From NCBI GenBank assembly GCA_015069325.1, contig SVIV01000002.1, positions 62,001-126,000 on the forward strand: a DNA stretch of 64,000 nucleotides, given 5' to 3'. Below are positions 7,579 through 43,235 of the stretch, in pieces. How positions within the stretch are numbered: the stretch's first letter is position 1; the number at the start of each line of letters is the position of its first letter. Position numbers and translations under genes: made by a program. A model generated the notes under the pieces. That model saw nothing but the letters and a program-made list of their open reading frames with translations. It was not told the origin of the DNA and did no database searches. The stretch is from Clostridiales bacterium. Its GTDB lineage: Bacteria; Bacillota; Clostridia; Christensenellales; UBA1242.

Positions 7579-8016
7579 ATGGCACTTAATTACAGAAACA
7601 ACGGGAATGGGAATACAATCATTCCAAAGCTTGTTAAAAAGGACAACAAATATTACTATATGGACATTGATGGTTCTATCAGCGACGGATTCGTAAACGC
7701 AACAGTTTATGCTGGCGGATTTAGCTTGGTCAAAACAACTTCAAACAAAACATCTTTTCAATTTAGAGATATGCTTGGCAATCTCTCTTTAAAGAAAACA
7801 CAAGTGGGCAAAGACTTCTATGAATTTTGGAGACAAAATCTTGCATTCGAAGCACTAAAGCCTGAATATTTTGTAAATGATAAATTCTATAACGTTGTAA
7901 AAATGATTATGGTTGAAAGAGCAAAACCTTTAGCTCACTATCAAATTCAACGTTGCGACGAAAAAAGAGAATTAGGAATAAAACTCTTGATAGCTGCAAC
8001 TGAAAATAATAAATAA
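7579..8016 (+). CDS. Tandem paralogue 1 (unknown family, divergent and shortest)
   Basis: Unknown function; 145 residues, no signal peptide or membrane helix. First of five consecutive paralogues. It keeps the shared core in diverged form: an aromatic YYYMDIDG strand, AGGFSLVK (about 46-52), then QFRDMLGN (61-68) where the siblings have RDLLGR, followed by a helical segment ending YFVNDKFYNVVK. It lacks the charged helical extension and the TLDYLE-like tail of the siblings. AAGGAG precedes the ATG. The core resembles half of a WG-type repeat (aromatic-Asp-x-x-G, then GFAxV, then DLLG), but that is inference. The track ORF 7454-7696 in another frame is a shadow. Confidence 0.8.
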   Translation: MALNYRNNGNGNTIIPKLVKKDNKYYYMDIDGSISDGFVNATVYAGGFSLVKTTSNKTSFQFRDMLGNLSLKKTQVGKDFYEFWRQNLAFEALKPEYFVNDKFYNVVKMIMVERAKPLAHYQIQRCDEKRELGIKLLIAATENNK

Positions 8017-8035
8017 CATTTACAAAGGAATAACT

Positions 8036-8593
8036 ATGAAAAAATTAATTAGATATGGAATAGCAAGTCAATTTTTCTTCTTAGACGAAAACGGAAATAA
8101 AAGCGAACTTTTTCAATCTGCAACGGACTATAAATTGGGCTTTGCAATTGTTCACAAATCAAAAAACGATAAATCTCAATATAGGGATTTACTTGGAAGG
8201 CTTAGCGATAAACCTACTTCCAGCGGAATCTGCTTTTACAATTTCTGTTTAGATCAAGTTGTTCTTGAAGATATACCTTTAATTCATTTTTCAGACACTA
8301 TTTTTTGTGAAGGAATCAAAAAACAAATTGTTGAAAAACTAAAGAAAAAAGCCCTCAATGAATATAAATCTGGTTGCACTCTTGATAAAGAAAATTACGC
8401 CAAAATTTTAAACAAACAATTTGCATTTATTGAAAGAATGCACACTGAAGCATTAAAGTGCGAAAAACGTCAATTACTTAAAGCAGAAAAAGAAAAACAA
8501 AAAAATCTCTTACAAGAGCAAGAACAATCTACAAAGGAAAACTTAAGGAAGCAATCCTTAACAGAAACGCTTGACTACTTGGAGAATGTATAA
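8036..8593 (+). CDS. Tandem paralogue 2 (unknown family)
   Basis: Unknown function; 185 residues, soluble. The shared core reads FFFLDENG (13-20), LGFAIVHK (34-41), QYRDLLGRLSD (48-58), SSGICFYNF (62-70) and HFSDTIFCEGIK (84-95). Then comes a long charged, probably coiled-coil region (about 100-170, many K/E/Q) and the tail TETLDYLENV. AAAGGA lies before the ATG. The stop overlaps the next start by one base (TAATG), so it is coupled to paralogue 3. The invariant RDLLGR and HF-D-IFC-GIK blocks, spaced as in the siblings, show common descent by tandem duplication. Confidence 0.85.
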   Translation: MKKLIRYGIASQFFFLDENGNKSELFQSATDYKLGFAIVHKSKNDKSQYRDLLGRLSDKPTSSGICFYNFCLDQVVLEDIPLIHFSDTIFCEGIKKQIVEKLKKKALNEYKSGCTLDKENYAKILNKQFAFIERMHTEALKCEKRQLLKAEKEKQKNLLQEQEQSTKENLRKQSLTETLDYLENV

Positions 8594-9168
8594 TGATTAA
8601 TGCAAATATTTACCACTTCATAAAACCAAAACTTGACGGCATCTCCGCTCGCAACAGTTTTTGGTATGAAGATTATAGACAAAATAAAAGCGAATGTTTT
8701 GTAAAGGCACATCAATATGTTGACGGATTTGCTATCGTAAAAAAATCAGCTGAAGATGACGATCAATACAGGGATTTGCTTGGAAGAATCACAAATGAAA
8801 AATCGGAAAGCGGAAACATCTTCTTCAAATACATATGCAGTCAACTGGAAATCGAAGATATTGCCCCTTTACATTTTGCAGATGACATCTTTTATACAGG
8901 AATCAAGGACGCACTTATATTGAAAGCAAAAATTCAAGCAAGAGTTGAATTTAACGAGGGAAAAGTGTTAAGCAAAAATCAATATCAGCAAGATATTGAA
9001 AACAACTTTGAAGCAATTGAAACAAAAAGAATCGTTGGGCTTGCTATGATTAAAGCAAAGGAAAGGGCCGAAAAAGAGCTTGCAAAAAAACTCAAACAAG
9101 ATGAAAATAAAAAAATAATTAAACAACAGGCTTTTGACGAAACATTAGATTATCTTGAAAGTTTATAA
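8593..9168 (+). CDS. Tandem paralogue 3 (unknown family)
   Basis: Unknown function; 191 residues. Core blocks: FWYEDYRQNKSECF (23-36), DGFAIVKK (44-51), QYRDLLGRITNEKSESG (58-74), HFADDIFYTGIK (94-105), then a Lys/Glu-rich helical stretch and the tail FDETLDYLESL. The N-terminus is about 10 residues longer than in paralogue 2. GGAGAATGTATA before the ATG supplies a ribosome site embedded in the end of the upstream gene. No catalytic signature is evident; the conserved residues are mostly aromatic, Asp, Gly and Arg, as in a binding or structural module. Confidence 0.85.
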   Translation: MINANIYHFIKPKLDGISARNSFWYEDYRQNKSECFVKAHQYVDGFAIVKKSAEDDDQYRDLLGRITNEKSESGNIFFKYICSQLEIEDIAPLHFADDIFYTGIKDALILKAKIQARVEFNEGKVLSKNQYQQDIENNFEAIETKRIVGLAMIKAKERAEKELAKKLKQDENKKIIKQQAFDETLDYLESL

Positions 9169-9179
9169 GGAGAAATAAT

Positions 9180-9716
9180 ATGAATTATTATGAGATTGGT
9201 TTTGTTTGCAATAAGGAAAAACACGAATATTACTTTGTAATGAATGGTCAGGAAAGCGAACGTTTTTATGAAGCCAGCTTTTATCAAGATGGTTTTGCCA
9301 AGGTAAGAAAAACTAAAGATTCAGAATTGCAATACATAGATTTGCTTGGAAGAATAACAAATGAAAAGACTAAAAGTGGAGAACAATTTTTTCAATACAT
9401 ACTTGGAGAAATTCCATACGAATCATTGTTTTTAGATCATTTTTCCGATAACTTGTTTTGTATAGGGGTAAAACAACAAATCTTGCAAAAAGCAAAGACT
9501 CTTGCTAAGGAACGATATAATTCAGGAATTCCTGTTAATAAAAAGGATTTTGAAAAAGCCATAGAAAAAACATTTAAAGAAATTGACCTTAAACACTCAC
9601 TTGCTTTAGAAATAGCTCAATCTAATGCTGAAATAGATGAAATATACAAAAACAAGAATTCTGGTGAAGATGAATATGAAGATACCATGACTTTCCTAGA
9701 TGGATTTGCTTTATAA
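9180..9716 (+). CDS. Tandem paralogue 4 (unknown family)
   Basis: Unknown function; 178 residues. Core blocks: YYFVMNGQESERFY (17-30), DGFAKVRK (37-44), QYIDLLGRITNEKTKSG (51-67; here Arg is replaced by Ile in the RDLLGR block), HFSDNLFCIGVK (87-98), then a helical region rich in K/E and an acidic end with the diverged tail DTMTFLDGFAL. The ATG follows a strong AAGGAG, 11 nt after the previous stop. It aligns end to end with paralogue 3 without gaps larger than a few residues. Confidence 0.85.
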   Translation: MNYYEIGFVCNKEKHEYYFVMNGQESERFYEASFYQDGFAKVRKTKDSELQYIDLLGRITNEKTKSGEQFFQYILGEIPYESLFLDHFSDNLFCIGVKQQILQKAKTLAKERYNSGIPVNKKDFEKAIEKTFKEIDLKHSLALEIAQSNAEIDEIYKNKNSGEDEYEDTMTFLDGFAL

Positions 9717-9725
9717 GGAGAACTG

Positions 9726-10280
9726 ATGAAAAACAGCGAAATGCCGATACTATACAACAACCAAAAAAGCTCTTTCTATATAGACATTGACGGAACAGAA
9801 AGCCAACATTTTTGGTATGCTTGCGGATATTATAAAGGCTTTGCTGATGTATGCCCTACTTTTAAAACAACAAAATGTCGTGATTTGCTTGGCAGGCTGA
9901 CCGATAACGAAACAAGAAGCGGAAAAATATTTTATAAATTTTTCATTGAAGAAATTTCGCTTAAAGATATTGATTTAATATGCTTTGCAGATGAAATATT
10001 TTGTGAAGGTGTAAAAAAAGAACTTATTCGTAGGCAACAAGCAAGAGCAAAGGAATTGTTTCAGAAAGGCCAAAAGGTCAGCAAATCAAAAGTAAAACGG
10101 GAAATAGAGCACGATTTTAGTTATATTGAACACAAACACAAAAAAGCAAGCACCCTATTGACAAGAAAAATTAAAACAAGAAAAACTATCAATAATGAAA
10201 AAAAAGAAACAAAGAAACAACCAGACTACTCACAACAATACAACGAAACAAAAGATTATTTAGACAGTTTAATTAAATAA
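9726..10280 (+). CDS. Tandem paralogue 5 (unknown family)
   Basis: Unknown function; 184 residues. Core blocks: SFYIDIDGTESQHFW (16-30), KGFADVCP (37-44), CRDLLGRLTDNETRSG (51-66), FADEIFCEGVKKEL (87-100). These are followed by a very basic helical region (RRQQARAKELF, later RKIKTRKTINNEKK) and the tail NETKDYLDSLIK. AAGGAG precedes the ATG 9 nt after paralogue 4. The strongly basic C-terminal half differs from the acidic end of paralogue 4, suggesting that the copies have diverged in surface charge. Last gene before the shared terminator. Confidence 0.85.
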   Translation: MKNSEMPILYNNQKSSFYIDIDGTESQHFWYACGYYKGFADVCPTFKTTKCRDLLGRLTDNETRSGKIFYKFFIEEISLKDIDLICFADEIFCEGVKKELIRRQQARAKELFQKGQKVSKSKVKREIEHDFSYIEHKHKKASTLLTRKIKTRKTINNEKKETKKQPDYSQQYNETKDYLDSLIK

Positions 10281-35830: not shown

Positions 35831-36436
35831 TTAACTCCCTTTATTTTGCTTATTTAGTTTTGTTTTATAACAGTGATAACACATTCCTTCATATCTATCA
35901 TCACCACCAATCACAATTTCTTCACCTTCACAAACAATTTTCCCATCATTTAGCCTTGCATTTATTGTTGCCTTTCGCCCGCAACGGCAAACAGATTTGA
36001 TTTCATTTATTGAATCTGCAAGTTCTATCAGTCTTTTACTTCCTTCAAAAAGTTCTGTTTTATAATTAGTAAGCAAGCCGAAACACAATACAGGCAAAAA
36101 TAATGAAAGCTCTTTCAATTCTTCTACCTGAGATTTTGTAAGAAATTGACATTCATCTACGATTATCACATTTTTTTGAATCTTGTTTACATTTACAATC
36201 ATATGTTTTTGACAGATATCAAAAAAGTTATCTTCTTTAGTAAATTCAAGACATTCACTTTTTAGCCCAATTCTGCTTGAAACATAACTTTTTCCATTTT
36301 CTTGGCAACGATTATCGCAAATTGGCTTAAATAAAAAAACATTAAACCCTTTTTGCTGATAGTTAAATTTAATCATAAGCGCTTGGGCTGTTTTTGAACT
36401 TCCCATAGCACCATATCTAAAATATAGTTTATTCAT
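35831..36436 (-). CDS. tdk: Thymidine kinase
   Basis: Type II thymidine kinase that salvages thymidine to dTMP. The P-loop reads GAMGSSKTAQAL (about 10-21), the Walker B-like element is VDECQFLT, and a Cys4 zinc ribbon closes the protein (CRCGRK..CYHCYK). 201 residues, normal. AAGGGGATA precedes the ATG. Operon with the phosphoketolase; ThyX, about 3 kb upstream, provides the de novo route to the same product. Confidence 0.94.
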   Translation of the reverse strand: MNKLYFRYGAMGSSKTAQALMIKFNYQQKGFNVFLFKPICDNRCQENGKSYVSSRIGLKSECLEFTKEDNFFDICQKHMIVNVNKIQKNVIIVDECQFLTKSQVEELKELSLFLPVLCFGLLTNYKTELFEGSKRLIELADSINEIKSVCRCGRKATINARLNDGKIVCEGEEIVIGGDDRYEGMCYHCYKTKLNKQNKGS

Positions 36437-36545: not shown

Positions 36546-39020
36546 TTATTTGAAATTTGAATCTTCATAGTCATAATCTTTTTTGTGATTTTGTTTATCC
36601 TTTCGTCGTTTATCTCTCTTTTTCTTTTCTTTTTGACGAATGATATTGCCAATATAATTCTTTTTATTTGTTGTTTCTCGCATTTCAGCCTGACTTACCA
36701 TTTTCACATCAGTCTTTCCAATAACTCTCATCGCTTTTCTATCTGCTTTTTCAATGATAAAGTCAATTGGCTTGCAAAGTGCAAGGATAATATTTCCATT
36801 GCCATCATATACAGCACATCTTTGAGGAGAAAGTTCGCAATCAGACGAATTTCTACCAATAACTTGCGATAATGGAATTTCTGCACTTATCCCTTTTGAA
36901 TCTTCTTTAACAATAACAATAATGTCATCTTCAAAGCCTTCTTCTGGAGATGTTGCACGAAGTTTAGTAATTCTTCCGTGCATTTTTTCGCCAATATGTT
37001 GTTCGCAATATATTACGCTGTTGATATCTTCAAAATCTTTTTCTGCTTGATCAACCGCAAGCTGTCTAGAATTTGCAATGTCAACAATCTTTTGAATTTT
37101 ATTTAAAGAAATCTTACTTGTTCCGTGAATATCTGCAAGAATATTGTATTGAGTAATATAGTCAGGCACTCTTCTGATAGGAGAAGTAGTGTGAGAATAA
37201 TGTGGAGATTGAAGTGCGTAATGCGAAATTCGCTCTCCTTCCCATTCAACATACTCATCATCTGGATCATTACTGTAAAGATGATCGCTATAAACAGCCC
37301 TTGACTGCATTTTAATTAGGAAGTTGTTTACAACTTCTTCGTTTGCTCCATCTTTTACAATTTCAAGCAAATCTCTTGTCCCCTCTGCAGAAAGATCACC
37401 ATCAAATTCAATCCCTAAAATGTCAAAAAATTCATTGGCTCTTTCAATTTTATGTGGATTTGGTTCGTCGTGAACACGATAAATATTGTCTAAATTATTA
37501 TCCTTTGCATATTTAGCTGTAACTTCATTTGCGCTTATCATAAATGCTTCAATCACTTCGTGATAATACAGGTGTGAAAGTGGAACAATATCTACAATAT
37601 TTTGCAAATCTTCATCAAACTTAATCTCTCTTTCCTTGCTTGCAAAAAATCTAATCATTTTTCTTGATTCAAAACCTTGTTTAATAACTTTTCCTGCACA
37701 ACAATTCATCACTACTTGTTCTTCTTCAGAAAGTGTTTGCCCACTTCTAATTTTTTCTGTCAATTCATCCAGAGTAACATCTTTGTTTTCATCAACAATA
37801 TTTTGAGCATCTTGATAAGCATATTTTTTCTTGCTTTGAATCACTGCATCATAAATTCTACTGCGTTTAATACTTCCCGTGGTCTTATCTACAGTAAATT
37901 TGACAACAAAAGCCAGTCTATCTTCATTTGGATTTAATGAACAAATTCCTGTTGAAAGTTGAGTAGGTAAAATATTGTATGCCTTATTTGGAGCATAAAT
38001 TGTAAAACCACCTTCAATATACTTCTTCCCTATTTCACTGTTTAAATCAAAGTATTTAGTAACATTTGCAACCGCAATATAACAAACTATATCGCCATTT
38101 TCATTTACAGTTGAATAAATTGCATCGTCCATATCTTTGCAAGTTGCAGGATCAACTGTAGTAAAATTGATATGTCTTAAATCTACAATATTTCCCCTAT
38201 GACTTCTTTTTGCTTCGGCTTCTGAAATAAGATTAAAGTCTGCAATGTTTACTTTATTTGGAATTTTTGCAATCTCTTTTTCAAGTGATTCACCTTCCCA
38301 ACTCATAATTGCACCATAACTTTCTGCAATAGCGTCAAATTCGTGAATAGGATTTCCCGCATCGCCCTTGATTTCAACAATTTTTCCGCCAAGAAGCGGT
38401 GCATTTACATCAACAAGCTCCATCACGCAAAGTTTATCTTGAAAGGCTGCTTGTTCATCCGAACTGTTGAGAATAGGAATTTGTCTTGTAGCAAAACTTT
38501 TCTTATTTGGTATAAAAACCAATTCGTCGTGACTTAGTTTCAACACTCTTCCAAGTGCAAGATTTGGATTAGTGAGCTCCAACTTTGTTGCATTGCGTTC
38601 TTTGTATGATGAAAAAGTTTCTCCGTAATTTTTCCCCAACACAATTGCTTCATCACTTCCACTTATACTCTCAATAACAACGTGAAGCGGATCTCCATTG
38701 CTATAACTTGAAGCTACACTTTTACTAATCCTATACTTTTTATTAGTTTCCGGCATAACAACATAAAATTCATTGTTTCCCATTTCTTTTAAATACCCAA
38801 GTTTAACAATTTCTGGATTAATTGAAACCATTTCCTTATCTTTAATAATGCCGCCATTTGCAACAAGCCTGTCGAATGCCTGATAAAATCTATTTTTTGT
38901 GCTTATTTTCTTTCTGAAAATAAGTTGATTTCTCATAGTGTTTTTATGAATCTGATTATGAAAAAATGCACATCTGTAAATCGCCCCAATATTTTTAATC
39001 ATTTCAAAATCATTTGCCAT
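36546..39020 (-). CDS. rnr: Ribonuclease R (RNB-family 3'-5' exoribonuclease)
   Basis: Processive 3'-5' exonuclease that degrades structured RNA. Order: a winged-helix-like N-terminus, cold-shock domains, the RNB catalytic core (VDPATCKDMDDAIYST with the metal-binding Asp residues), a C-terminal S1 domain (MHGRITKLRATSPEEGFEDDII) and a very basic tail (KKKRDKRRKDKQNHKK). 824 residues, slightly long, as in other Clostridia. AGGAG precedes the ATG. Its usual partners smpB and secG are not adjacent. Confidence 0.93.
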   Translation of the reverse strand: MANDFEMIKNIGAIYRCAFFHNQIHKNTMRNQLIFRKKISTKNRFYQAFDRLVANGGIIKDKEMVSINPEIVKLGYLKEMGNNEFYVVMPETNKKYRISKSVASSYSNGDPLHVVIESISGSDEAIVLGKNYGETFSSYKERNATKLELTNPNLALGRVLKLSHDELVFIPNKKSFATRQIPILNSSDEQAAFQDKLCVMELVDVNAPLLGGKIVEIKGDAGNPIHEFDAIAESYGAIMSWEGESLEKEIAKIPNKVNIADFNLISEAEAKRSHRGNIVDLRHINFTTVDPATCKDMDDAIYSTVNENGDIVCYIAVANVTKYFDLNSEIGKKYIEGGFTIYAPNKAYNILPTQLSTGICSLNPNEDRLAFVVKFTVDKTTGSIKRSRIYDAVIQSKKKYAYQDAQNIVDENKDVTLDELTEKIRSGQTLSEEEQVVMNCCAGKVIKQGFESRKMIRFFASKEREIKFDEDLQNIVDIVPLSHLYYHEVIEAFMISANEVTAKYAKDNNLDNIYRVHDEPNPHKIERANEFFDILGIEFDGDLSAEGTRDLLEIVKDGANEEVVNNFLIKMQSRAVYSDHLYSNDPDDEYVEWEGERISHYALQSPHYSHTTSPIRRVPDYITQYNILADIHGTSKISLNKIQKIVDIANSRQLAVDQAEKDFEDINSVIYCEQHIGEKMHGRITKLRATSPEEGFEDDIIVIVKEDSKGISAEIPLSQVIGRNSSDCELSPQRCAVYDGNGNIILALCKPIDFIIEKADRKAMRVIGKTDVKMVSQAEMRETTNKKNYIGNIIRQKEKKKRDKRRKDKQNHKKDYDYEDSNFK

Positions 39021-39135: not shown

Positions 39136-39166
39136 AATAAAAAAAATCCCAGCTGGGATTTTTTTA
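39136..39166 (-). terminator. Terminator after thyX
   Basis: Perfect palindrome AATCCCAGCTGGGATT with a T8 run on the minus strand. Confidence 0.88.
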
Positions 39167-40705
39167 AACTAAACTATTTAAAGTAATGCCTTCTGCAAAT
39201 TGACAACCACCTTTACAGTCATAACCTGCAGTGCATCTTGCAGTCTTTGCCATCTTTGCAAACTTTTCTTGCATACGTTCAACTTCTCTTCGTTTTGCAA
39301 GCAAGATTTGCACTTGTTCGCCACTTGCTGTTGTCATTGCCATTTGACCGAGCTTATCGCTTTCTTGTTTAAGAGCATCTGCAAATTCCTTGCATTTCCC
39401 TTGTGTCAAATCGCGAATTTCTTTTTGAGCAAGTGCACAGACTCTTTCATAGGCTTTAAGAAGATAATTTGACGTTTTTCCTGTTTCAACAACAGGCAAT
39501 AGTCTTCCTTGTGGAAAATGACTTGCAACAGATGTAATATCTGCTAAATATTGTGGAACAAGGTCTGTCCCTTTCAAAATTGGTGGAATAAAGAAGTCTG
39601 GTTTTTGAATTTCAAATTCTTTTTCGCTGATATGGTGATGATTTGTTCGATGGCGATGACTTTGCGCAAGTCCAGCCCCTGAAATTTGATATTTAATTGC
39701 AAACACATCACTATTGATTGTTTGTTCAATTAAAGGCTCTCCAAACATTGATAATTTTCTACCCTTTCCATCTTCAAGGGTTTCTGAATATAAATCATTT
39801 TCTTTAAACCACTTCACAAACTCTTTCATATATGGAATAAGTGGTCGATAAAATTCGTTTGGATTTTTTGAATAAATCACATCTTCAAACCAATGGCAAA
39901 TATAATTAAATTGTCTAAAACTTGTTGTATAAACCATATTTGATGGAGTAAATATTGAAATCATATATCTTGCATTTTCTTGTGCAAGTTTTCCTGCTTT
40001 TACGCCCTTCTCATCAAAGAAAGGTTTGCAGTTGCCATATTTTTTGTTGATTGCATCTTCAAAAATTTCTTTCCACTTATAAAACAGCTCTTTTTCCTGC
40101 GATTCAATATTGTCCATTTCAGTATATCTTGCACTTTTTTCACTTGTGTTGTATTCTTGTTCGTTATTTAAAACCATTGCAAGAGCTTTTGGAATGCCTG
40201 TAATTTCAAGCGTCAAATGAGAATGTCCAAAAGTTGAGTGATGCCCATTGTTTTCAACGATTTTTGCAATAGTCCTAATATCACTTACTCTCTTTTCTTC
40301 AAGCTGCTTGAAAGTATCTTTCATATAGCAGGTGCTTCCCATAAGCCCCGCTACAATACGATTGAAGTGAAGATCATAATTGTAATGATATGCACCTTTT
40401 CCGCCAAGAGTTGAAATTAATAACAAGCAATCATCTAAAAGCATATTACTTTTATCAATAATATTTTGCTTTTCAAACTTTAAAGCTTCTTTTTCGTCGC
40501 CACTTGCTTGCTTAATTTTTGCAGAAATTTCTTTTTCTTCTTGTGCAAGCGAATAATATTTTGCACATTTGTCTTTTAAAACATTGATATAATTTTTGTT
40601 GTAAACTCCCTTGTTTTCCAACTCTTTCATTGACTGCATAATAAGTTGTATATCTGGATTAAGATTACAATCAAGTTCACTGTGCATTTTAATTTGAATA
40701 TTCAT
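39164..40705 (-). CDS. thyX: Double-domain ThyX-type flavin-dependent thymidylate synthase
   Basis: Makes dTMP from dUMP with FAD and methylene-THF. At 513 residues it is about twice the normal ThyX (220-260) and looks duplicated. The first half has GHHSTFGHSHLTLEI and TSEKSARYTE (the S-x-RY end of the ThyX motif), but the RHR part reads NEQ. The second half has HRHRTNHHHISE (the RHR part) and LPVVETGKTSNYL..AQKEIR, yet lacks S-x-RY. A Cys-rich tail (ARCTAGYDCKGGC) follows. The two halves seem to share one composite active site. GGGGGGA precedes the ATG. Function is inferred from motifs. Confidence 0.85.
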   Translation of the reverse strand: MNIQIKMHSELDCNLNPDIQLIMQSMKELENKGVYNKNYINVLKDKCAKYYSLAQEEKEISAKIKQASGDEKEALKFEKQNIIDKSNMLLDDCLLLISTLGGKGAYHYNYDLHFNRIVAGLMGSTCYMKDTFKQLEEKRVSDIRTIAKIVENNGHHSTFGHSHLTLEITGIPKALAMVLNNEQEYNTSEKSARYTEMDNIESQEKELFYKWKEIFEDAINKKYGNCKPFFDEKGVKAGKLAQENARYMISIFTPSNMVYTTSFRQFNYICHWFEDVIYSKNPNEFYRPLIPYMKEFVKWFKENDLYSETLEDGKGRKLSMFGEPLIEQTINSDVFAIKYQISGAGLAQSHRHRTNHHHISEKEFEIQKPDFFIPPILKGTDLVPQYLADITSVASHFPQGRLLPVVETGKTSNYLLKAYERVCALAQKEIRDLTQGKCKEFADALKQESDKLGQMAMTTASGEQVQILLAKRREVERMQEKFAKMAKTARCTAGYDCKGGCQFAEGITLNSLV

Positions 40706-40990: not shown

Positions 40991-42196
40991 TTAGCTTTCA
41001 AATGTCATTGTATCTAAAATATCTAAAACTTCTTTAATCTTATCAGCCGCTTCATCGCACATTTCTTTTGTATGATTTGCTGTATAACTTGTTCTAAGAA
41101 GTGCTTGACCTACAGGAGTTGCAGGAGAAATTACAGGATTTACATAAACCCCACGTTCTAAAAGCATCTTGCAAGCCAAGAAAGTCTTTTCATTTTGATA
41201 TGTGTAGATTGGAATGATTGGAGTTTCGCTTTCAATAATTTTGATTCCCCTATCTTTAAGGCATTTTCTCATATAATCACTAATATCGTGAAGATTTTGG
41301 ACTCTTTCTGGGTGGTTTTTCAAAATATTGAGTGATGCTCTTGCACAAGCAACAGAAACAGGAGTTATACTTGCAGAGAAAATGAATGGACGAGAAGCGT
41401 GTTGAACATATTCAACAACTTCTTTCTTGCCTGCCATATAACCACCAAGTGAAGCAAGTGATTTTGAGAATGTCCCCATATAAATATCAACTTCATCTTC
41501 AAGACCAAAGTAAGATGCAGTTCCCCTGCCGCCTTCTCCGATTACGCCAAGACCATGTGCATCGTCAACCATAATTCTTGCACCATATTTTTTAGCAAGT
41601 GCAACAATTTCAGGAAGTTTAGCAATGTCTCCACCCATTGAGAAGACACCATCAGTAATGATTAAAATTCCGCACCCTTCAGGAACAGATGCAAGTTTTC
41701 TTTCTAAATCTTCCATATCGCTATGATTGTAACGAAGCATTTTACCATAACTTAATTTGCATCCATCATAAATACTTGCGTGATTTTCTTTGTCACAAAT
41801 CATATAATCATTTCTTCCAACAATTGCAGAAATGATACCAAGGTTGCTTTGGAACCCTGTGCTGAAAGTGATAACCTTTTCTTTGTGTAAAAATTCGGCA
41901 AGTTCTTCTTCAAGTTGAACGTGAATATCCAAAGTTCCGTTTAAGAATCTTGACCCTGAGCAACCACTTCCATACTTTTTGATTGCTTCTTCACCAGCTT
42001 TTACAACTTCAGGGTGATTTGTAAGTGCAAGATAGTTGTTTGAACCAAGCATAATAGTCCTTCTACCTTCCATATTAACAACTGTATCTTGACCTGAATA
42101 CAATTTGTGGAAATATGGATAAATTCCCTTTTCTCTTGCCACTTGATAAATATGTGTTTGATTGTAAACCTTATCAAATAAATCTGCTCTTTGCAT
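40991..42196 (-). CDS. Alpha-oxoamine synthase, serine palmitoyltransferase-like
   Basis: PLP enzyme of the family that condenses an amino acid with an acyl-CoA (KBL, BioF, HemA, SPT). The PLP lysine is in GTFSKSLASLGG, the N-terminal block GSGCSGSRFLNGTLD and DDAHGLGVIGEGGRG are present, and NPVISPATP near the C-terminus with YPYF near the N-terminus fits bacterial serine palmitoyltransferases better than BioF. 401 residues. No biotin or threonine-degradation genes are adjacent, so sphingolipid-type synthesis is a possible but unproven role. AAGGAG precedes the ATG. Glycine acetyltransferase is the main alternative. Confidence 0.8.
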   Translation of the reverse strand: MQRADLFDKVYNQTHIYQVAREKGIYPYFHKLYSGQDTVVNMEGRRTIMLGSNNYLALTNHPEVVKAGEEAIKKYGSGCSGSRFLNGTLDIHVQLEEELAEFLHKEKVITFSTGFQSNLGIISAIVGRNDYMICDKENHASIYDGCKLSYGKMLRYNHSDMEDLERKLASVPEGCGILIITDGVFSMGGDIAKLPEIVALAKKYGARIMVDDAHGLGVIGEGGRGTASYFGLEDEVDIYMGTFSKSLASLGGYMAGKKEVVEYVQHASRPFIFSASITPVSVACARASLNILKNHPERVQNLHDISDYMRKCLKDRGIKIIESETPIIPIYTYQNEKTFLACKMLLERGVYVNPVISPATPVGQALLRTSYTANHTKEMCDEAADKIKEVLDILDTMTFES

Positions 42197-42477
42197 TATT
42201 TTCTCCTTCTTTTTAACTAATTATTTATATTAATAGCATATTTTTTCACATTCTCCAAACGATTTTAACAAATTTTTAACTTTTTTCTTTATAATCGCTA
42301 TTCTCCTTTATTTTAAAGAGAAATAGCATATTTTTTATTGTTAAATTTAAAAATAGTTGTTTTATCAAAAAATCGCTACATTCCTTAAATTTAAACGCTT
42401 ATAGGTTTCATCACTTCAAATTCTTACATTTATAAAAAATTTAAAATAATTTTTCCTTCACCAAACTTAAAATTTGT
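42197..42477. other. Long AT-rich intergenic region with repeats
   Basis: About 280 nt without a supported gene. It contains a direct repeat AATAGCATATTTTTT near 42231 and 42326, and an imperfect palindrome GCTATTCTCCTTTATTTTAAAGAGAAATAGC near 42298-42328. On the minus strand a TTGGAG-17-TATTAA promoter candidate for the oxoamine synthase overlaps one repeat copy, so the repeats could be regulator sites. Confidence 0.45.
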
Positions 42478-42505
42478 TTGTCTTTTATATAAAATGTGTT
42501 ATACT
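42478..42505 (+). promoter_or_regulatory. Promoter of the MBL-fold hydrolase gene
   Basis: TTGTCT-16-TATACT about 25 nt before the ATG; AAAGGAT serves as ribosome site. Confidence 0.6.
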
Positions 42506-42530
42506 ACTTTTATACAAAGGATAAAATTAT

Positions 42531-43235
42531 ATGAAAATCAAAGTATTAGGCTGTTCAAACTCTTGGACGTCAAGATGGACTTCTTGCTATCAAGTCAATG
42601 AAAATATATTAATGGATTGCGGTTGTGATGCATACAAAGCATATTTGCAAACAGGTAAATCTCTTACCGACATTAAACTTTTCTTAATCACCCACTTCCA
42701 CGCTGATCATATTTACGGGCTTAATGTATTTTTAACATTTGTTCACAGAAATAGAACAAACAAAACTTACAAGCCAACAATCGTAGGACCAAAAGGCATT
42801 CAAAAAATGTGTGAACGCGTTTTTTACACATCAAACCTTATTAAATTTGATTTTTCTGATTATGTGAATTTTGTTGAAGTTAAAGATGGTGATAGTTTTG
42901 AGTTTGATGGCATAAAAATATCTGCTCACAAACTCAACCACGGAGACGTTGTTGATTTTGGATATATTCTTAACGAAAACGAAAAATCTATTGGCTATAC
43001 AGGCGATACAACACTAGTCCCTGCTTTATTTAAATTTATTGAAAAGTGCGATACTTGCATAATGAACATAAGCAGAACAAAAACAAATGCAAAGCATTTG
43101 GGTGTAGATGCATTTGAAATGTTAAAAACAAAATACCCAAACAAAAAACTACTTGCTACCCATTGCGATGAAGAAGTTTATATGTTGCCTGAAATTAAAC
43201 CTTCACGAGTAGAAGAAGGAATGATTATTGAATAA
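42531..43235 (+). CDS. MBL-fold metallo-hydrolase (RNase Z-like)
   Basis: A 234-residue metallo-beta-lactamase-fold hydrolase. The metal motif THFHADHIYGL (HxHxDH, about 54-64) is intact, followed by a later His (KLNHGDVVDFGY) and GYTGDTTLVPAL, which matches the Asp-containing motif of the ElaC/RNase Z group. It lacks the long exosite arm of true RNase Z and is shorter (about 300 expected), so tRNA processing is not established; a phosphodiesterase role is possible. Single gene with its own promoter. Confidence 0.85.
   Translation: MKIKVLGCSNSWTSRWTSCYQVNENILMDCGCDAYKAYLQTGKSLTDIKLFLITHFHADHIYGLNVFLTFVHRNRTNKTYKPTIVGPKGIQKMCERVFYTSNLIKFDFSDYVNFVEVKDGDSFEFDGIKISAHKLNHGDVVDFGYILNENEKSIGYTGDTTLVPALFKFIEKCDTCIMNISRTKTNAKHLGVDAFEMLKTKYPNKKLLATHCDEEVYMLPEIKPSRVEEGMIIE

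Follow-up and report, generated by a model that had tools for sequence, protein, structure and literature searches.

A double-module flavin-dependent thymidylate synthase (ThyX) gene was identified in the window, the 64,000-nucleotide stretch of contig SVIV01000002.1 analysed here. Both halves of the 513-residue protein are ThyX-type modules, and all catalytic and substrate residues are present in one polypeptide, at 15 invariant positions, 8 of them in module 1 and the other 7 in module 2. The protein is likely an active FAD-dependent thymidylate synthase, which would have arisen when the classical homotetrameric ThyX underwent duplication and fusion in the distant past, and would work as a dimer with composite sites, the reciprocal sites being dead. 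Activity, dimeric assembly and the presence of two sites per dimer are what we infer from the sequence.

Modular organization of the protein

The gene consists of a single open frame on the reverse strand, and the encoded protein can be divided into the regions listed below.

39164..40705 (-): gene for the double-module ThyX, 513 aa and a stop codon; single open frame, Thy1 match
40679..40705 (-): first beta strand (MNIQIKMH), residues 1-9; found by alignment, also present in the short homologues, strand 2-8 in the model
40391..40678 (-): helical insertion after strand 1, residues 10-105; alignment, profile and conservation
39872..40384 (-): module 1, residues 108-278, SxRY without RHR; hhalign E 1.7e-19, Pfam Thy1
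39749..39871 (-): linker joining the modules, residues 279-319; gap between the two profile matches, helix 287-302 in the model
39167..39748 (-): module 2, residues 320-513, RHR without SxRY; hhalign E 2.5e-8 backed by shuffled controls, Foldseek search with this module by itself
39188..39238 (-): cysteine-rich C-terminal tail, residues 490-506 (RCTAGYDCKGGCQFAEG); C497 and C501 invariant

The protein is conserved, at a length of about 370–480 residues, in many species of the same genus, and the shortest relatives in the alignment comprise 372–426 residues. The insertion at residues ~10–105 is variable and fast-evolving, shows the lowest conservation among the regions compared and, in alignments with same-genus homologues, is far shorter or missing. 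When compared by hhalign with the classical ThyX profile, the insertion gave no match. The first ~105 residues were therefore rejected as part of a duplicated half. The protein had been described in the first-pass annotation as a double-length ThyX; the two modules are indeed there, but the length is not simply twice that of ThyX, as residues ~10–105 are an insertion. At the opposite end, the cysteine tail is similar to the C-terminal cysteine tail found in classical clostridial ThyX proteins.

Homology of the two modules to ThyX

Pfam Thy1 matches the protein only once, at residues 122–267 within module 1 (2.4e-17), and module 2 alone is below Pfam's reach. The score against the NCBIfam ThyX equivalog TIGR02170 is 42.1 bits, short of the cut-off of 87.9 bits. 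Both modules were detected by hhalign when a profile of 22 classical ThyX sequences was used: module 1 matched with an E-value of 1.7e-19 and module 2 with an E-value of 2.5e-8, and with the whole protein the order of the matches is collinear. The corresponding scores (127.5 and 59.6) are well above the maxima obtained with 30 column-shuffled classical profiles (22.1 and 27.6, respectively). A direct hhalign comparison of module 1 with module 2 yielded no match, which is expected because the two modules have kept complementary parts; homology is therefore shown via classical ThyX.

The ligand-free AlphaFold2 monomer, modelled from a 27-sequence alignment, has a pLDDT of 91.8, and only residues 192–194 fall below 50, which in the model would match the mobile active-site loop. 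All PDB matches of the full model obtained by Foldseek at E <=0.001 are ThyX-type structures, ThyX being the best and the UMP/dUMP methylase PolB being included. Normalised by target, the TM-score to ThyX is moderate in both cases, at about 0.53 with the full model and 0.42 with module 2. When module 2 is modelled alone (pLDDT 90), T. maritima ThyX ranks first over 137 columns, with a modest TM-score of ~0.42. A sequence search of solved structures returned weak ThyX matches only. Both the presence of the whole motif in one half and an unrelated second half were looked for, and neither was seen; the latter was rejected by the hhalign comparison with shuffled controls and by the Foldseek search of module 2.

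Catalytic residues are divided between the modules

Residue numbers of T. maritima ThyX were taken from published papers and transferred by alignment, and conservation was counted over 27 aligned diverse homologues. The relevant positions are the following.

40223..40243 (-): HHSTFGH, residues 155-161, corresponding to T. maritima H53, T55 and H59; H155, S157 and H161 27/27
40157..40168 (-): NNEQ, residues 180-183, at the RHR place in module 1; N181 26/27, E182 24/27, R78-H79 reads N-E
40124..40135 (-): S191-A-R193-Y194, SxRY end of the ThyX motif; S191, R193 and Y194 27/27
39968..39970 (-): R246, corresponding to T. maritima R147 and M. tuberculosis R172, phosphate contact; 27/27, from the M. 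tuberculosis contact list with equivalence by alignment
39647..39655 (-): R351-H352-R353, RHR end of the ThyX motif; 27/27, Q348 preceding R351 by three residues, giving QxxRHR
39416..39448 (-): ERVCALAQKEI, residues 420-430, with R421 as the R174-type arginine; R421, Q427 and E429 27/27

The first half (...MVLNNEQEYNTSEKSARYTEM...) reads NNE at the position of RHR and keeps SxRY, in the form SEKSARY. The second half (...GLAQSHRHRTNHHHISEKEFEI... and ...YERVCALAQKEIRDL...) keeps QxxRHR and the ERxCxxAQxEI/AQxEIR region and has lost SxRY. Equivalents of H53, T55 (as Ser), H59, E86, S88, R90, Y91 and R147 are found in module 1, and equivalents of Q75, R78, H79, R80, R174, Q180 and E182 in module 2, all of them invariant (27/27). 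Lys173 of module 1, also invariant (27/27), occupies the position of R87 in M. tuberculosis ThyX. Equivalents of Q75, RHR and R174 are missing from module 1 in essentially all sequences. The half-motifs had been proposed as complementary from the window alone, SxRY without RHR in the first half and RHR with AQxEIR but without SxRY in the second. Both descriptions proved correct, the split being invariant in all 27 homologues, and the losses reach well beyond the two motifs originally named. The same division holds in all 43 double ThyX proteins inspected: none has a contiguous RHRx7SxRY motif in one domain, SxRY occurs in the first half only and RHR in the second only, with no RHR at the corresponding position in the first half. 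The lone variation in SxRY is a Y-to-F change (STRF) in the Microcoleus phage protein.

Distribution and phylogeny of double ThyX proteins

Double ThyX proteins with this split are present in 24 of the 81 genomes sampled from the same genus, and two additional matches are fragments. ThyA is found in 21 of the 81, and only one genome carries both; the two enzymes are thus nearly exclusive within the genus. Neither was found in 37 genomes, in only some of which classical ThyX was looked for, and thymidine dependence may be common among these reduced genomes. In G024, G341, G032 and other genomes of the genus, the ThyA matches lie in frames of ~400 residues and cover only the first ~230 of the 266 profile positions, so that these genomes may encode a ThyA that is fused or otherwise unusual.

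Outside the genus, related double proteins were found in seven IMG/VR contigs and, within Clostridia, in two further families. More distant ones are found in a viral contig type (L061 and L099), in Thermomicrobium roseum and in the phages LMM01, Microcoleus My-WqHQDG, Vibrio BONAISHI and Tunturi_5. Searches with the window protein found no closer relatives among plasmids and one weak match among phages.

A phylogeny of the two halves, proposed earlier as a check, was obtained as a maximum-likelihood tree of the modules and classical ThyX. All first modules form one group (96/87) and all second modules another (98/97), each on one side of a branch, and each clade holds the same three subtypes, mirroring the other. 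The two clades suggest that a single ancient fusion took place, although, at its moderate strength, the tree is supportive rather than conclusive because of the long branches and the difficult alignment of very divergent modules. Module 2 of T. roseum (LNHVSFTF...QNQRHR) is similar to classical ThyX (IEHVSFTF...QLVRHR), a resemblance that fits descent by duplication. Purifying selection acts on both modules, as shown by dN values far below dS; in the least saturated pair, L009 and L011, dN and dS are 0.002 and 0.030 for one module and 0.012 and 0.075 for the other.

Thymidylate metabolism of the host

The host is a gut bacterium with a genome of ~0.99 Mb, available as a 96% complete draft. Searches of this genome for ThyA (PF00303) and folA (DHFR_1) found neither, and SHMT is present. 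The combination of thyX and SHMT with no thyA and no folA is the usual profile of ThyX-dependent bacteria. The double protein is the only putative thymidylate synthase found in the genome, and the absence of ThyA is not absolute, as the draft is 96% complete. The curated TIGR02170 cut-off hence misses what is apparently the sole thymidylate synthase in the reduced genome of a gut bacterium, and bacteria in which a double ThyX is missed could look like thymidine auxotrophs.

A thymidine kinase gene (35831-36436, reverse strand; Pfam TK, 6e-32) is separated from thyX by a single gene, which is RNase R-like (36546-39020). Salvage therefore also exists, and genes for the salvage and the de novo synthesis of thymidylate lie close together.

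Proposed composite sites in a two-chain enzyme

Classical ThyX is a homotetramer with four identical active sites, each built from three subunits. In the classical enzyme, R174 activates dUMP, and S88, R90 and Y91 help in methylene transfer (PMC8316439); H53 is stacked against flavin or folate, and R78 is directed towards N1 of the flavin (PMC11940539). Single sites combine R197 of subunit A with R109/Y110 of subunit C in H. pylori (PMC4632503); in PBCV-1, monomer A contributes R182 and monomer B contributes S88/Q89 (PMC3498832). On our own reading, H. pylori R197 and PBCV-1 R182 are the counterparts of R174. No text placing RHR on a particular subunit was found in the open-access literature. 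As the published sites draw the R174-type arginine and SxRY from different subunits, the split observed here follows a known between-subunit division. It had been proposed that the split halves would make a composite site, and this is supported both by the complementary losses and by the published pairing of the two elements across subunits.

Following the ancient duplication and fusion of a classical homotetrameric ThyX, a pair of fused chains would assemble into a pseudo-tetramer with four pseudo-sites. At two working sites, module 1 would provide the mobile loop with SxRY, the histidine of GHxS and, with K173 and R246, the phosphate-binding side, and module 2 would provide Q348, RHR and the dUMP-activating R421; the halves of a working site may come from the same chain or from opposite chains. 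At the remaining two, the modules would meet in the reverse orientation, so that neither residue set would be present and the sites would be dead. Since each module would be free to lose the residues facing dead sites, complementary loss needs no special explanation. It seems reasonably probable that the double proteins of Clostridia, Thermomicrobiota and large phages make up a separate ancient lineage, in which complementary loss after a single fusion turned a symmetric four-site homotetramer into a two-chain enzyme that is asymmetric, two of its sites being composite and working and the other two dead.

Other explanations have to be weighed against these composite sites. One module might be catalytic and the other a decayed scaffold that aids assembly, a view with which the Pfam match to module 1 alone and the greater divergence of module 2 would agree. 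However, the residues missing from module 1 (RHR and the equivalents of Q75 and R174) are invariant in module 2 (27/27) and would not be kept by a decayed scaffold, and this module has a dN much lower than its dS, making a scaffold role very improbable. The ThyX fold and the composite site might instead serve another flavin-dependent C5 reaction, as in a UMP/dUMP methylase like PolB or in the synthesis of a modified phage pyrimidine, rather than the production of cellular dTMP. PolB is among the structural matches and several double proteins are encoded by phages, but such a function is very improbable for an enzyme that alternates with ThyA in the genus, fits the folate context of ThyX and is found in a genome where no other thymidylate synthase was detected.

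We consider it very improbable that the protein makes no dTMP and that the cell relies on thymidine salvage, given that all catalytic positions are strictly conserved and that purifying selection is strong across distant lineages. The thymidine kinase gene nearby and the 37 of 81 genomes of the genus with neither double ThyX nor ThyA would be in keeping with such reliance, as would the atypical ThyX of C. glutamicum, which, according to the titles of PDB entries 3fnn and 3ge9, is not required for thymidylate synthesis.

With composite sites, the double protein would be a clean example from nature of subfunctionalisation within a single polypeptide, where each half retains just the residues facing working sites and a usually symmetric enzyme has been made asymmetric by fusion. 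The two sides of the site could be mutated separately, unlike in the homotetramer, which would offer a direct way to probe each side of the three-subunit ThyX site.

Comparison with known ThyX proteins

The double protein shares ThyX-type modules with the classical ThyX/FDTS family (Pfam Thy1, PF02511; T. maritima TM0449 and the M. tuberculosis, H. pylori and PBCV-1 enzymes). GHxS, QxxRHR, SxRY, R147, R174, AQxEI and the cysteine tail are each found once per polypeptide, as in classical proteins, and the folate context is alike. In contrast to the latter, the double protein has two diverged modules per chain, a divided residue set and no contiguous RHRx7SxRY motif, and two working sites, rather than four identical ones, are predicted per four modules.

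Domain duplication in ThyX is already known: Valas and Bourne (2009, PMC3224940) noted a Chloroflexi ThyX with a domain duplication, called uncharacterised, and the passage reporting the duplication describes no split motif. The complementary split is apparently undescribed, as no report of it was found in the open-access literature, a search that does not prove absence. TRD_RS10450 of T. roseum is likely an example of the duplicated Chloroflexi ThyX. This protein of 557 residues has two Thy1 matches and shows the same split, with FHHHPFYNSEQVSQRY in the first half and DAQNQRHR in the second, but is more divergent in sequence. Structurally, the closest match over the full length (450 columns, E 1e-11) is the putative thymidylate synthase of Microcystis phage LMM01 (491 aa, BAF36111.1), which features STRY in the first half and NRHR in the second. 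In contrast, it is only 12% identical, is encoded by a phage and belongs to a separate subtype in the tree.

Chlamydial ThyX is likewise unusually long. The enzyme was reportedly studied biochemically by Griffin et al. in 2005 (cited in PMC8316439). It could be of the same split type, in which case the activity of the double type would already have been shown. Chlamydia, like the host genome, is thyX+, thyA- and folA- (PMC3932018).

Genes surrounding thyX

Upstream of thyX, the window contains, within 40991-43235, a gene for an aminotransferase-fold enzyme (401 aa) and, beyond it, a metallo-beta-lactamase-fold gene. Genes of these two folds also adjoin thyX in the related contigs L002 and L003, in which ABC-transporter genes are located downstream of thyX in place of the RNase R-like gene. 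Elsewhere in the window, at 7579-10280 on the forward strand, five consecutive small ORFs (145–191 aa) are apparent tandem paralogues featuring a YRDLLGR/CRDLLGR-type motif.
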